Shown: in pieces, positions 3,353-39,887 of the stretch
Numbering within the stretch: the stretch's first letter is position 1
Layout: every line of letters starts with the position of its first letter
DNA from: a virus
Virus record (IMG/VR): IMGVR_UViG_3300045922_000165
Location: 1 to 43,627 of that record
Direction: 5' to 3' (one strand)
Length of the DNA: 43,627 bases
The notes under the pieces: model-generated
What the model saw: the letters and a program-made list of their open reading frames with translations, nothing else
Told to the model about the DNA's origin: nothing
Databases searched by the model: none
Translations under genes and position numbers: made by a program

Positions 3353-6300
3353 TTACCGCCGTTGCCTTGTTTTGCGTCTTCGTGTCATTGGCTGCCCCCT
3401 CAAATTCTCACCCTTGCCGCGCAACAAATCAAGTAGCAAACCGCTATCAGATAAGTTGTCTTGGTCTGATGCCAAGTTAAAGATAAACTTAGCGGCATTT
3501 CTAGGTCCAGGTCCAGCCGGAATCGGTAGCTGAGACATGTTTGCAATAGCCATAAGATCACTTACAACATCGCCAGGAGACGCTGGCGTGTAGCGCGTTC
3601 GCCCCATAAACTCGTACGCCCGTTGGTACTCGCCTTCAGTCCCGTAGGTAAAGAGACCTGTGCCTACTTTTGCCACAGTGTCTACAACTTGAGCGGCGGG
3701 TAGGTTGACAAAGTCGCTGAACTCAAGCGGTTTATTCACCCCGTAAACATTGTAGAGATAGCCTGGGTGCTGCCCGTCCTCGCCAAAAAGCGAGTTGATG
3801 GCGGCGTTCGTACCTCGCAGCCAAAGTTTTTTAAGGCCAGAGCCTGCGCCGGGGATAAGCTCAAACGGCGAGCCCGCCATCTGCGAGGTCAGCCGTGTGG
3901 TCGCAAGTAAAGGGTCGCTTAGGAAATCGTCCGCAAGACCTTCCAAGTCGTTACGCCCACTCAGCAACCCACGCGAAGTGTCCTCAAGCGCCTGGGGTAA
4001 AAAGATCGCAATAAAAGCCATGGGGGCCAAAGCGCCCCAGCGTTTAAGCATGCTATCAGCAAACTGAAAATCGACCTCGCGCTTTCTGCCTGTCGCGTAG
4101 TTAAGGCGCTTGACTGACCAGTTCGTGTACATAAAGGCTGCTCGCGCCATGTTGCTTCTCAGCGCCCCATAGACTTCACTGGCAAAGTAGCCGGGCATGA
4201 CACGCTCAACGTCTCGCTCGGCCAAACGAATTGCCTCATTAAAGTCGGCACCGCGTCGCATGTGGCCGTCCATAAACAGCGAGAAGGCGGCGGTCTCAAC
4301 AACCCCTTGTGTGTAGTGGTCAGCAAAACGAGACACGCTATCGAAATAGGCGTTCACTTGCGCCGCCAATTTAGCGACCGGAAGACCAGCTCGCATAGCG
4401 GCAGTCTGGCGCAAAGACGCATCAAGAGCTTGCCTTGCGTAATTGATATTGTTTTGTTGCCGCGCCTGAAGGTAGGGCGAGAGCGACTGTAAATAAAGAT
4501 ACTTGTTACGGTGTAGAATCAAGTCGGCAGCGGTCATGCCGAACTGAAGGGCTTTTGCCACCCTCTGAGTCGTAGGGCGCACAAGACCGGACTCGGCCTG
4601 AACTCCGCCAGCATCCTGAACCACGATAAGGTCCGCCACTTTACCGGCTTCAAACGCGTTCAACACGGGTGAGATAAAGTTCCACGCAATTTGCAGCTTG
4701 GACGTAAGCCCCGTGATCGCTGTCGTAAGTTTACTGGCCGCTTCGTAAGCGGACTCCATGCGGATGTCACCAAGCGCACCACTATGGATACTCTGGTCAT
4801 TAAAGGCGCGCACCGCAGGCCAGATAGTGTTTTCCATAACTCCAGGACTTATCGAGTCCAACAAAGTGTATATGTTTTTATCTAAGAACACTTCGGATGT
4901 GACTACCGAGGCCTCGCGAATGTGGTTAATACGCTCAATCTTAAGTAAGTGATTGACGTAGGAGCTGGCGTCTAAGGACAGCCGCTCTCCCTCGATTGTC
5001 GAACGCGACTTCTCATAAGACGCCACAACCGGGGTTTCGCTTAAAAGATCCGACAAGCTTTCCATGTAGCCACTACGTGCGAACTGTTCCTGGGCCTTCT
5101 CAATAGACACCGCCGATTTCTTCTGAAACAAACTCTTCTCGGATATCGGAGACATGTTTGTTTTTATGGGGGCGTACCAGCCAGACTTGATCCACTCTTT
5201 TGGTACGACATCGCCAAAGGGGAAACGTTTGTCGGAAAGCTTTACATAGCGACCAAAAGTTTTCTTGTGCTCGCGTTGCACGTCCTTAAACTTAACCTCG
5301 TATCGGTCACCCATGACTTGAGCAAATTTAAAATGAGCTTCAGTAAGCACACCATTTTCAATGGCCTCGCGCACGTATGTTTTTAACCCGTCGATGTCGG
5401 TATTAAAATTTCTTCTCGCCAAGCGAGCAGCGTTTTCCATGTTGCCTAAGTTAAGCGCAATCGAAATTAACTCCGGTGCGGTAAACATCTCACTAGCAAA
5501 TTGCTTCTTGCCTTTAAAAGACAAAGACTCTGAGTTTAAGTTAACAAGTTGGTTAAGCTGAGTAAGAAACTCAACGTGACCGCCGGGGCCGTTAACCGAG
5601 TTAATCAGATTTGATGTCGACTCTCTCACTAAGTCCGCAACTTTAGAGAGCTCCGGCACGTTAAGCGAATATATAAAGTCGGAGAACAAACTAAAATTCT
5701 GCGCCGTTCTTCGAGCGATACCGCTCAACGAATTAGGGTCTTCTCTTAAGCCAAGCTGACCGCGCGTGCGGTCAAGAGCGGCCAAGATATTGTCGTTGAC
5801 CGAAATTTTAGTGGGGTCTTCGGCGCGCTGTTCGCGGATAGCTCTAGCAAACTCCGCCCGATACGTAGGCCCAAACCGTCCGCCCGTCTTCCTGTCGCCA
5901 AGCTCAATTTCTCGCTTAAGCAAGGAATTAAATATATCTGACCGTACGTCAGCAACCGGCTTCCCATCTACTTTGTAGACAATAGGCTCGTTCTTTGCGG
6001 CGGTTACTCGGTCAGCCAAAGAGGCGACCATGTTCATATACTCAATTGCGCTTAGGCCTTCGCGGACCTCCGGAACGTAAGGGTCGAACTCGTAAACAAG
6101 TCGCTCGTATTTGTACGGATCAAACTGAGCCAGGGAATCAAGCTGGTCCTGGACAAAAGCGGACGCCCTAACCGCGCCAGATCGCTCAAGGACTAGGCGC
6201 GCACCCAAAACGTAATCAGTATCGTAGCCTTGCTGATTGAGCTCGGTTAAATCTGACTTTACTATCCAGTCTACAACTTTTTGCGTGTCCTTAATCGCGC

Positions 6301-25305: not shown

Positions 25306-25565
25306 AAACCGCCATGAAAGACTTCACTGCTTTAATCGACCTTGCTGTCAAAGCCAACGATCAAGCCTATGTCCCCTGTGACTTCCCGATTCAGGTCAAT
25401 GGGGAGACATGGGTCGCACATGAGGCAAGCATCTGTCACCGCGACATTCTTTTAAGTTGCGACAAGGGGACGGCGACCTTTCTGGTTGATTCCTATGGGG
25501 ACCGCCATGTTTGCGAGATCTTTGATTGGGAGAGTGACCAAGATGAGCAAGGCGGTGACCAATGA
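25302..25565 (+). CDS. Small early protein, unknown
   Basis: An 87-aa protein. It begins with an ATGA overlap on the upstream gene and ends with an ATGA overlap on ardC, so all three are probably translated as one unit. Features: FTALIDLAVKANDQAYVPCD near the N-terminus and an acidic end (DWESDQDEQGGDQ). No domain recognised. The tight linkage to an antirestriction gene suggests a role early after DNA entry, but this is only context. Confidence 0.6.
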   Translation: MKTAMKDFTALIDLAVKANDQAYVPCDFPIQVNGETWVAHEASICHRDILLSCDKGTATFLVDSYGDRHVCEIFDWESDQDEQGGDQ

Positions 25566-26428
25566 GCAAAGTCACTCCATACGATATCGTGGCGCAGCAA
25601 ATCACCGACATCATGGCTCAAGGTGAGATTCCTTGGTCTAAGCCTTACTTTACCGCCAAGCTTGGCAATCAATGCAATGGCATGACCAAGCGGCAATATA
25701 CCGGCTTAAATGCAATCATTCTGGCCTCGCGTGGCTTTGGCAACAATCACTGGCTCACATTCAAGCAAGCAAGTGACATGGGCCTCAAGATTCGCAAGGG
25801 CGAGAAGGCCACAAACATTCTTGGCTGGTTTTCAAAGCAAGTAAGGGAAGAAGACGCAAGTCCTGAAGACTACGAAACACGCATCTTCGCTCGCTACTTC
25901 AAAGTGTTTAATGCCGATCAACTGGACCAGGTCCCTGATAGCATGAAAATTGGCGCTTTGATCGACAACCCCTTGGATCTGCCACGCATTGCCGAGGCGG
26001 ATTCCCTAGCCAAAAGGACTGGCGCAATCATCGAGGTTTTCCCATCTTGCACACCTAGTTACTGGCCGCTTGCCGATAAAATCAAAATGCCATGCTACAC
26101 GACCTTTTCTAGCCGCGAAGAATATTACTCAACTCTCTTCCATGAGCTGGGCCACTGGACTGGGCACAAGACAAGACTTGATCGCTTTAAAAAGTCCGAG
26201 CGCGTGGCCTTTGGAAATGAAGAGTACAGCCATGAGGAGCTTGTGGCCGAATTGACTGCGGCCTTTGTTTGTACGTCACTGAGCATTTCTAGCGACACAA
26301 GCTTGCGCAATAGTGCTGCGTACATTCAGGGGTGGATGAAGTACATTAAAGACAACTCAAAGTCCTTTGCGATTGCTTGCCAACAAGCAAAGAAAGCATC
26401 GGACTTTATCATGGCATACAAAAAATGA
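25562..26428 (+). CDS. ardC: ArdC-type antirestriction protein
   Basis: A 288-aa protein with the two-domain ArdC layout. The N-terminal ssDNA-binding part (1-130) has IVAQQITDIMAQGEIPW, NGMTKRQYTGLNAIIL and LKIRKGEKAT, typical of the family. The C-terminal zincin-like metallopeptidase part has FHELGHWTGH (H194, E195, H198), followed by EELVAELTAAFVC. ArdC proteins bind ssDNA and protect incoming DNA from restriction. Length is standard. It follows two small genes with ATGA overlaps and lies early in the rightward block, as expected for a function needed at DNA entry. The stop lies in AAAAAATGAG; see the alternate-frame entry just downstream. Confidence 0.9.
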   Translation: MSKVTPYDIVAQQITDIMAQGEIPWSKPYFTAKLGNQCNGMTKRQYTGLNAIILASRGFGNNHWLTFKQASDMGLKIRKGEKATNILGWFSKQVREEDASPEDYETRIFARYFKVFNADQLDQVPDSMKIGALIDNPLDLPRIAEADSLAKRTGAIIEVFPSCTPSYWPLADKIKMPCYTTFSSREEYYSTLFHELGHWTGHKTRLDRFKKSERVAFGNEEYSHEELVAELTAAFVCTSLSISSDTSLRNSAAYIQGWMKYIKDNSKSFAIACQQAKKASDFIMAYKK

Positions 26429-37371: not shown

Positions 37372-38181
37372 ATGCTTAGGTCGCTAGACCTATTTACAGG
37401 TTATGGGGGGATTACGCTGGCATTGGAAAACTATTGCCAGCCGATTGCTTATGTTGAAATCGAAGAATACGCACAGAGAATTATTGCAGAAAGAATGGCC
37501 GATGGCTCTCTCCCGAGAGCTCCAATTCTTGCAGATGTCAAAAACGTGCGAGGTAAATCTGGCGACTGTGACATCATCGTCGGAGGATTTCCATGCCAGG
37601 ACATTAGCGTTGCTAGAAATGGAAAGGGCTTGGCAGGAGAGCGAAGTGGACTTTTTTTCGAGATTGCTCGCCTTACCAAAGAAATTCAGCCCAGTTTTGT
37701 TTTTCTTGAAAACTCGCCAGCAATACGCACTAGAGGACTATATCATGTCGCCAATGAATTTACCGCTATGGGGTATGCTTGTCGATGGACGGTTGTTTCT
37801 GCCGGCTACGTTGGAGCCGCTCACGAAAGAAAAAGATTCTTCTTACTTGCCCACGCCAACAGCAAGACCATACGGAAACAACCAATCAAAAAGCAAAGGG
37901 AGCTCTGTAAGGCCAAGCCTTTCAACAATGGCCTCACACAACAAGTGGCCGACTCCGCTAGCGAGAGACTGGAAGGGGCCGGTCGGCAAAAACAGAGAAT
38001 GCCTATCGCTTCCAAGCTTAGTCGAAAAGAGTGGCTTAAGATTGAACCCGCAGTTTGTCGAGGCACTCATGGGACTAGCTATCGGGTGGACCGACTTAAA
38101 GCCCTTGGCAATGGCGTCGTGCCAGAGCAAGCAAGAGTAGCTTTTGAATATTTAATGGGGATTAAGGACGGTAAGCTATGA
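37372..38181 (+). CDS. dcm: C5-cytosine DNA methyltransferase
   Basis: A 269-aa protein with the ordered motifs of the family: I LDLFTGYGG (5-13), IV GGFPCQDIS (catalytic Cys75), VI LENSPAIR (ENS at 113-115 in place of the usual ENV), VIII-like HERKRFFLLAH (151-160) and X ALGNGVVPEQA (about 244-254). The variable region before motif X is short (about 70 aa), at the low end for target recognition. It would methylate cytosine in phage DNA to evade restriction. It overlaps dam by 4 bases. Its +1 frame carries another long, motif-like ORF; see separate entry. Confidence 0.92.
   Translation: MLRSLDLFTGYGGITLALENYCQPIAYVEIEEYAQRIIAERMADGSLPRAPILADVKNVRGKSGDCDIIVGGFPCQDISVARNGKGLAGERSGLFFEIARLTKEIQPSFVFLENSPAIRTRGLYHVANEFTAMGYACRWTVVSAGYVGAAHERKRFFLLAHANSKTIRKQPIKKQRELCKAKPFNNGLTQQVADSASERLEGAGRQKQRMPIASKLSRKEWLKIEPAVCRGTHGTSYRVDRLKALGNGVVPEQARVAFEYLMGIKDGKL
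37403..38140 (+). CDS. Overprinted ORF inside dcm (PTP/RDWKG family protein)
   Basis: In the +1 frame of dcm an ORF of 245 codons stays open for nearly the whole gene. Its second half does not look like a random shadow: PLWGMLVDGRLFLP (121-134), YLPTPTARPYG (148-158), KWPTPLARDWKGP (181-193) and LNPQFVEALMGLAIGWTDL (214-232). I recall this order from many proteins annotated as methyltransferase-associated ('WGmmrdGe', 'LPTPtA', 'WPTP.ARDWKg', 'LNP.fVEwLMGfPiGWTdL'). A shorter start at the ATG at 37619 (MERAWQE) is plausible. Product and function are unproven. Confidence 0.5.
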   Translation: MGGLRWHWKTIASRLLMLKSKNTHRELLQKEWPMALSRELQFLQMSKTCEVNLATVTSSSEDFHARTLALLEMERAWQESEVDFFSRLLALPKKFSPVLFFLKTRQQYALEDYIMSPMNLPLWGMLVDGRLFLPATLEPLTKEKDSSYLPTPTARPYGNNQSKSKGSSVRPSLSTMASHNKWPTPLARDWKGPVGKNRECLSLPSLVEKSGLRLNPQFVEALMGLAIGWTDLKPLAMASCQSKQE

Positions 38182-38986
38182 GCGAACCCCTGGCAATAAA
38201 ACGCCCAGTGCTTAGATATTTTGGGGGCAAGTTTATACTGGCTCCTTGGATTATCTCTCATTTTCCTAAGCACAAAGTCTATGTCGAGCCTTATGGCGGG
38301 GCAGCCTCGGTCCTTATGAGAAAGCAACGATCTTATGGTGAGGTCTACAATGACATTGACGACTCTTTGTATTCTCTTTTTAAGGTTCTCGCCGATCAAA
38401 AGAAACACCAGGAATTAAAAAAAGTCGTTGAAGCCACTCCGTTTTCAAGAAGAGAGTTTGAACTGGCTCATGTTTATCACCCCTGTGAAATTGAAAAAGC
38501 CAGAAGATTGATTGTCAGAAGTTTTATGGGCTTTAGCGCAGACTCGTCTACAAACGTAGAGAGAAAAACTGGCTTTCGCTCGAATTTAAATAGAAGTGGC
38601 ACCACCCCAGCCCATGATTGGGTAAACTGGCCTCAATATATCCCGACCTTTTATGAAAGGCTTAAAGGTGTAGTGATTGAGTGCAAAGACGCTTTTGATG
38701 TTATAAAAACCCACGACTCAAAAGATACTCTATTTTATGTAGATCCCCCTTATTCCCATCAGACCAGGCGCAGTGGTCGGTATAAGCATGAGCTTGATGA
38801 CCAAGACCACGTTGAACTTTTATCTCTACTCAAAACAGTACAAGGGAATGTCGTGCTTTCTGGCTACGACTCTGAGTTTTATTCTCAGTATCTAAGCGGA
38901 TGGAGGGTAGTGACAAAAGATACCTTTGCAGACGGTGCAAAAAAAAGAACAGAAGTACTTTGGATTAAGGACGGTGAGCTATGAGC
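38159..38986 (+). repeat. 25-bp direct repeat bracketing the adenine methyltransferase gene
   Basis: The stretch at 38159-38183 (it contains ATTAAGGACGGTAAGCTATG) recurs at 38962-38986 with a single A-to-G change, i.e. 24 of 25 bases. Each copy spans the end of a methyltransferase gene, the ribosome-site region and the next ATG. The repeats are 803 bp apart and dam lies exactly between them. The 11-bp core GGTGAGCTATG also occurs at the dcm start (37364-37374). Confidence 0.85.
38178..38984 (+). CDS. dam: N6-adenine DNA methyltransferase (D12/Dam class)
   Basis: A 268-aa protein with LRYFGGKFILAPWI (FGGK near 15-18, SAM binding), YVEPYGGAASVLM (EP.GG at 37-41), EVYNDIDDSLYSLF (ND.D at 58-61), and LFYVDPPYSHQTRR (catalytic DPPY near 190). 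Order and length match the D12 class. The start overlaps dcm by 4 bases. The C-terminus (WIKDGEL) repeats the end of Dcm (GIKDGKL) because of the direct repeat. Expected role: adenine methylation for restriction evasion or regulation. Confidence 0.93.
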   Translation: MSEPLAIKRPVLRYFGGKFILAPWIISHFPKHKVYVEPYGGAASVLMRKQRSYGEVYNDIDDSLYSLFKVLADQKKHQELKKVVEATPFSRREFELAHVYHPCEIEKARRLIVRSFMGFSADSSTNVERKTGFRSNLNRSGTTPAHDWVNWPQYIPTFYERLKGVVIECKDAFDVIKTHDSKDTLFYVDPPYSHQTRRSGRYKHELDDQDHVELLSLLKTVQGNVVLSGYDSEFYSQYLSGWRVVTKDTFADGAKKRTEVLWIKDGEL

Positions 38987-39558: not shown

Positions 39559-39887
39559 TCGCAAGTCTTGGAGAGGACGCAAACAATAGTTTTGCAGATA
39601 GAGCCGACGATGACGGATACCCCTACGGTGAAGGTGACGACTACAGCTACGGCAACGTCAACGGCAACGTCAACGGCAACGGCCACGGCGACGGCCACGG
39701 CGACGGCTACGGCAACGGCCACGGCTACGGCTACGGCAACGTCAACGGCAACGGCTACGGCTACGGCAACGTCAACGGCAACGGCTACGGCAACGGCCAC
39801 GGCTACGGCTACGGCAACGGCCACGGCTACGGCTACGGCAACGGCGACGGCGACGGCGACGGCAACTGTGACGGCAAAGGGTTTTAA
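39543..39887 (+). CDS. Gly/Asn/Tyr/His repeat protein encoded by a hexanucleotide repeat
   Basis: A 114-aa ORF. The first 35 residues are ordinary and acidic (MELGLIASLGEDANNSFADR). The remaining part consists of G-X dipeptides, X being Y, N, H or D, with occasional VN (YGNGHGYGYGNVNGNGYG). The ATG at 39543 lies inside the previous gene after GAGG. The protein is predicted to be disordered or fibre-like, with many histidines and tyrosines. Two other frames through the repeat are also open as (Ala-Thr)n and, on the minus strand, (Val-Ala)n, so the frame is not proven. I prefer this frame because of its ATG, ribosome site and coupling. Confidence 0.5.
   Translation: MELGLIASLGEDANNSFADRADDDGYPYGEGDDYSYGNVNGNVNGNGHGDGHGDGYGNGHGYGYGNVNGNGYGYGNVNGNGYGNGHGYGYGNGHGYGYGNGDGDGDGNCDGKGF
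39648..39866. repeat. GGCNAC hexanucleotide repeat tract
   Basis: About 219 bp, 36 units of 6 bases: GGCTAC, GGCAAC, GGCCAC, GGCGAC and some GTCAAC. Only one base of each unit varies freely, and all four bases occur there. Longer repeats of two to five units also recur (for example GGCTACGGCAACGTCAAC). Expansion and contraction by slippage or unequal recombination is expected. Confidence 0.95.

Follow-up and report, generated by a model that had tools for sequence, protein, structure and literature searches.

The sequence analysed here (the window) comprises the whole 43,627 bases of IMG/VR record IMGVR_UViG_3300045922_000165, in which the gene under study, dcm, lies at positions 37372..38181 of the plus strand. 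The list of open reading frames (ORFs) gives 269 amino acids for its main frame (alpha) and an ATG-initiated ORF of 245 amino acids at 37403..38140 in the +1 frame (beta). An earlier note on this DNA had claimed that the +1 frame of dcm is open, which was confirmed: no stops occur over 37388..38137 (250 codons), and the open frame with its terminator covers 37388..38140 (+). All peptides quoted in that note were also located, in the +1 or main frame as it had said. The alpha frame presents motif I (LDLFTGYGG, 37384..37410, placed on invariant columns of alignment A2), motif IV with the catalytic Cys (GGFPCQD, 37582..37602), motif VI (ENSPAI, 37708..37725) and motif VIII (GAAHERKRF, 37813..37839), followed by a variable stretch and motif X (ALGNGVVP, 38101..38124); the main-frame stretch VADSASERLEGA is found at 37945-37980. 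The conserved and constrained part of beta runs on the same strand from approximately motif IV (about 37556) to the stop codon at 38138-38140. It includes the block PLWGMLVDGRLFLP (37763..37804; family consensus WPxWGMMxxG), a variable region (37844..37981) with YLPTPTARPYG (37844-37876) and KWPTPLARDWKGP (37943-37981), and a motif-IX-like block, LNPQFVEALMGLAIGWTDL (38042..38098). Motif X of alpha overlaps the end of the conserved block of beta (GWTDLKPLA). Directly downstream, a D12-class adenine methyltransferase gene (38178..38984, +; PF02086, E 1.8e-22) shares a 4-nt overlap (ATGA) with the alpha stop.

Database matches identify alpha as the large domain of a C5-cytosine methyltransferase. 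It was matched by PF00145 (E 2.9e-37, amino acids 3-199 only), by phrog_363 over its full length (E 2.2e-61) and by M.HhaI over amino acids 2-176 (E 3e-18). The SAM motif I, the catalytic PCQ of motif IV, motifs VI and VIII in order, and motif X are all present. No canonical motif IX was found on this chain, and the PF00145 match ends at amino acid 199. Because motif IX and the recognition domain are missing from the chain, alpha alone was not classed as a complete enzyme.

For beta, the match obtained was to phrog_1008, labelled ‘DNA methyltransferase’ (E 5e-15). Neither beta nor its alignment matched a Pfam or NCBIfam family, or a PDB entry by sequence, and PADLOC gave no match to beta. When viral contigs were searched with the window beta as a single sequence, no matches were returned, and profiles were required. 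AlphaFold models of beta alone were poor (pTM 0.26 and 0.24). The core shared by 117 relatives reads ...SWKTxQxSL...WPxWGMM.xG...LWPTPxA...GGxLNPxWVEWLMGWPIGWTDL, within which LNPxxVEWLMGxPxGWT is the motif-IX-like element supplied by beta. Residue spacing in this last block is that of canonical motif IX (L-N-P-x-W-V-E-W-L-M-G-W, against L-T-P-R-E-C-A-R-L-M-G-F in ordinary enzymes); the sequences compared with it were RRLTPRECARLMGF (canonical) and RLSARFAEWMMGWPEGWVT...IGNGV (fused). Profile-profile comparison with canonical enzymes also placed the block on motif IX, a weak match (E 4e-4, probability 33%) that was not used as support. In PHROG, beta is gathered in phrog_1008 and alpha in phrog_363, both labelled DNA methyltransferase; no record there links the two frames, and pieces of beta are spread over phrog_26627, 35493, 27243 and 31772.

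The nested overlap is kept in related genes of many bacteria and phages. Six phages with a dcm 30-42% identical to alpha all carried a +1 ORF with the same motifs. Sampling was then extended with a profile of the +1 protein, which found 80 loci in viral contigs and another 80 in genomes of many phyla, and with an alpha profile, which found 80 loci in viral contigs. A +1 homologue overlapped dcm in the relative frame +1 in every viral locus sampled through the +1 protein (80/80), in every genome locus (80/80) and in every viral locus sampled through dcm (80/80, some on the same contigs as those from the +1 profile). Alpha identity to the window was mostly 30-50% in these relatives. Among the loci with a scorable motif IV, the +1 match reached the C-terminal half of the beta profile in 203/203, this being the diagnostic half, as the N-terminal part is partly mimicked by the +1 frame of an ordinary dcm (phage MM1). 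A canonical motif IX in the main frame was seen in 0/203 of the same loci. The suggestion of a family-wide dual-coding locus was thus supported, the +1 homologue occupying the same relative frame in all sampled relatives.

The beta domain was also encountered outside a full overlap with dcm, an occurrence that the earlier note had asked to be looked for. In LHTSCC, Smooch and ArV1, alpha stops shortly past motif VIII, and the recognition region, an IX-like block and motif X are encoded by a +1 ORF that partly overlaps it (pairs gp81/gp80, gp7/gp6 and 067a/067b, respectively). A set of 83 actinobacterial phage loci, some of them near-identical, includes 38 in which a single ORF encodes both alpha and beta and 41 whose beta lies in the +1 frame and carries motif X. 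The HMM built on window-type beta matched 32 of the 38 fused ORFs, and within phrog_116 the split beta proteins match the C-terminal part and alpha the N-terminal part. On account of these matches, beta is regarded as the C-terminal half of a C5-methyltransferase, found either within a single-chain enzyme or encoded by a gene of its own that partly overlaps alpha.

These observations suggest a two-chain C5-cytosine methyltransferase read from two frames of the same DNA, a reading to which we assign a probability of about 0.83. The main frame would provide alpha, a large catalytic domain with motifs I-VIII together with motif X, and the +1 frame would provide beta, a small domain that contains motif IX and the target-recognition region. 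Together, alpha and beta would form one complete enzyme, which would methylate a specific site in the phage DNA. A target-recognition/motif-IX domain of such an enzyme is the most likely identity of beta, which we infer from the sequence evidence to be translated. The proposed recognition region is the variable region of beta, assigned by position, because it lies between VIII and IX in the fused relatives. Splits of methyltransferases between VIII and the recognition domain are functional, in natural as well as artificial cases (PMC3404938, PMC5944983). Methylation would most likely protect the phage DNA from host restriction, as suggested by the adenine methyltransferase directly downstream and by an ArdC-type anti-restriction gene in the genome. 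The latter lies at 25562-26428 of the window and its product has ArdcN and zincin-like metallopeptidase domains.

A programmed +1 frameshift from alpha into beta, giving one single-chain methyltransferase, is an unlikely alternative. Fused single-chain forms do exist in actinobacterial phages, and in the split relatives beta has motif X and overlaps the end of alpha, such that a shift there would produce a complete enzyme. In nested loci such as the window, however, the DNA that encodes the end of the beta block also encodes motif X in the alpha frame, so that a shifted product would lack this motif. Moreover, the +1 frame of the FAGAGG clade (88 loci) is stop-free from the alpha start and has a conserved ATG, which fits independent initiation. 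This ATG lies 4 nt downstream of the alpha start and is retained in 86/93 loci of the clade, and alpha codon 2, when it encodes Asn, is always AAT, although AAC is equally common across these genes. Both features fit a separate initiation of beta, and the joining of frames by shifting, as had been proposed, is disfavoured for the nested type. In 15/93 loci of the same clade (e.g. L024, L019 and L038), the conserved alpha start position is occupied by a codon that does not usually serve as a start (TTA, CTT, CTA or CTC), with the beta ATG 4 nt downstream kept in at least some of them.

In the window, three candidate start codons for beta were found on the plus strand. An ATG (37535..37537) lies 17 codons before the motif IV position with a weak Shine-Dalgarno sequence upstream, a GTG (37568..37570) lies 6 codons before motif IV with GAGGT about 13 nt upstream, and a TTG (37610..37612) lies 8 codons after motif IV with AGGA 8 nt upstream. 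The TTG candidate is present in the near relatives examined and is partly fixed by the alpha PCQDIS codons. Over all loci, the combination of Shine-Dalgarno sequence and ATG at the beta N-terminus was not enriched (52 vs 41 expected). Close to the N-terminus of beta, 22/214 loci (L116, L136, L107, L146, L011 and others) have a QLTLF-like pentapeptide that resembles the consensus for binding the bacterial sliding clamp, against 0.4 expected from synonymous shuffles.

Beta might alternatively be a separate regulator or anti-restriction protein acting outside the methyltransferase, which we consider very unlikely. The missing Pfam, NCBIfam and PADLOC matches would agree with such a role, and the alpha-beta complex is itself a prediction. 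Against it, single-chain enzymes ending with an IX-like block and then motif X have a C-terminal half homologous to beta, and in all scored loci beta carries the motif missing from alpha. Of the two roles put forward in the earlier note for a +1 product, that of a target-specificity-type partner agrees with this homology, the recognition region being placed by position, and that of an antirestriction partner with a separate activity found no support.

By every sequence test available, the +1 frame is under selection as a second coding frame. For the window gene, none of 5000 synonymous shuffles that kept the dcm protein and its codon usage was stop-free in +1 (mean 6.8 stops), and the single stop counted in the real sequence is the terminator of the ORF itself. 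Stops were then counted from motif IV-12 to motif IV+140 in 149 non-redundant loci, with synonymous shuffles as the expectation. Only 10 stops were observed in the +1 frame vs 515.6 expected, in loci that are related by descent and hence do not represent independent events; 143/149 loci were stop-free against 5 expected. The +2 frame was at chance, with 1085 stops vs 1128 expected. Plotted by position, the stops separated two classes of loci. In the FAGAGG clade (the 88 loci above), the +1 frame had 0 stops over most of the gene, beginning at the dcm start and reaching the motif X region. In the other loci, including the window, stops occurred at about chance upstream of motif IV; between the approximate position of motif IV and a point shortly before motif X they were nearly gone. 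The limits of constraint coincide with the start and end of beta. The +1 HMM scored 155 bits on real sequences vs 55 on synonymous shuffles, and the real sequence scored better in 205/208 loci.

Synonymous change was measured per pair of sequences as third-base agreement at 4-fold sites coding the same amino acid. Window-type loci gave 0.51 inside the overlap vs 0.31 upstream, and the window with its 8 near relatives gave 0.62 (n 258) vs 0.20 (n 89). The FAGAGG clade, in which the whole gene is overlapped, gave 0.59 and 0.59, and canonical genes gave 0.28 and 0.28. Identity of the +1 translation between the window and the 8 near relatives was 0.33-0.43, compared with 0.20-0.25 for shuffles. 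As a further control, canonical genes were collected from 20 host genomes with nested loci: between motifs IV and X, each of 19 single-chain enzymes with motif IX had 5-30 stops in +1, and one further, atypical gene had 2. In five genes of these genomes that lack motif IX, 0-1 stops were counted in +1. Stops in +1 are accordingly almost absent among homologues, and substitution patterns, judged by shuffles and 4-fold sites, are not accounted for by constraint on the dcm frame alone; these were two of the checks that had been proposed for this locus. That the +1 frame is untranslated, its openness and conservation being only a by-product of the conserved dcm protein, is scarcely tenable: dcm conservation does produce some +1 similarity (the 55 bits of the shuffles; in phage MM1, which has an ordinary single-chain enzyme, the match of a +1 ORF to the N-terminal half of the profile), but shuffles keeping protein and codon usage have 50 times as many stops and score a third as high, synonymous constraint is seen only inside the overlap, the +2 frame and canonical genes are without signal, and the beta domain is also found fused or as a separate gene. 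An overlap merely induced by dcm conservation was rejected by the synonymous shuffles and the canonical controls.

A tree of the alpha core showed a branch (support 99) dividing the canonical enzymes from every member of the nested, split or fused type. The split and fused types group together (100) and are placed among nested loci; a separate branch (97) holds the nested members of Bacillota, Bacteroidota, Balneolota and Synergistota. The simplest reading of this tree, in which many inner branches are weak, is that nesting is the older state. We tentatively suggest, as one possible history, that nesting was ancestral and predates the spread of the lineage over many phyla, and that un-nesting later gave rise to the split and single-chain forms of actinobacterial phages, in which motif X passed from the alpha to the beta frame. 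If so, the overlap would be an ancient and obligate one inside a single enzyme.

The two-chain enzyme proposed here has precedents. M.EcoHK31I has its beta-chain gene in an alternate frame of its alpha gene and requires both chains; the small chain of the window likewise lies in an overlapping alternate frame. M.EcoHK31I is a naturally two-chain C5-methyltransferase (YGGCCR), in which alpha has motifs I-VIII and X and beta has IX (PMC3404938). The window shows the same division of motif content, with I-VIII and X on the large chain and IX on the small one, the identity of IX being backed by the fused forms. The predicted recognition domain is assigned to alpha in M.EcoHK31I, whereas in the window family it is assigned to beta by its position in fused relatives. 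Furthermore, M.EcoHK31I is part of a restriction-modification system, whereas no recognised endonuclease partner adjoins the window gene; no restriction-modification neighbours were found in the few genome loci examined. By architecture alone, the window locus is best filed with the M.EcoHK31I kind. M.AquI (CYCGRG) is naturally split after VIII in the variable region, with IX and X on the small chain (PMC3404938). The split pairs of actinobacterial phages resemble it in having IX and X together on the small chain; the window differs, with X in alpha and beta nested inside alpha.

In the streptococcal phages of the MM1 and 5093 group and in Tn5252, a pair of methyltransferase ORFs has been reported to occupy one stretch of DNA in different frames (PMC5601072). 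In the MM1 record, ORF14 lies inside ORF13 in the +1 frame. The MM1-type overlap was rejected as the same arrangement on reading its frames: ORF13 is a complete single-chain enzyme with its own IX and X, and the +1 ORF ends before the recognition/IX region. The Paenibacillus larvae phages Lily (gp63) and Diva (gp50) do belong to the nested family, and their depositors annotated the beta ORF inside dcm as an ‘internal gene’. The product is given there as hypothetical or DNA methyltransferase, and neither its function nor the family-wide pattern is stated. A literature search, which covered few subscription papers, returned no description of that pattern. The principle of a nested two-chain methyltransferase has precedent; the novelty lies in how widely the overlap is conserved and in the series of fused, split and nested forms.

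Long same-strand overlaps with both proteins conserved are unusual, and here both frames appear to code conserved parts of one enzyme. The natural coexistence of fused, split and nested versions makes the origin and cost of overprinting testable. Many annotations of ‘complete’ cytosine methyltransferases in phages and genomes probably describe half an enzyme, and recoding the main frame for expression would silently destroy the other half. Gene callers, Pfam and NCBIfam miss the second protein.

A few further observations were made on individual loci. A prophage of E. coli PCP07014 (L290, 3000-3761) contains a dcm copy classified as a pseudogene in RefSeq, with one stop in each frame, close together. 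In a Flavobacterium MAG (L234), a homologue of the DNA polymerase III beta clamp (3397-4509) is encoded directly downstream of the nested dcm. In Phytohabitans and Micromonospora (L232, 2677-4422; L233, 2677-4803), the beta frame is open far past the end of alpha, and the extended frame of L232 continues into a DUF3631 domain. Downstream of dcm in the window, positions 39649-39877 hold a tandem array of about 38 copies of the 6-base unit ACGGCA. The array lies within ORFs on both strands, which encode simple Gly-Asn/Asp-rich or Ala-Val/Ala-Thr repeats.
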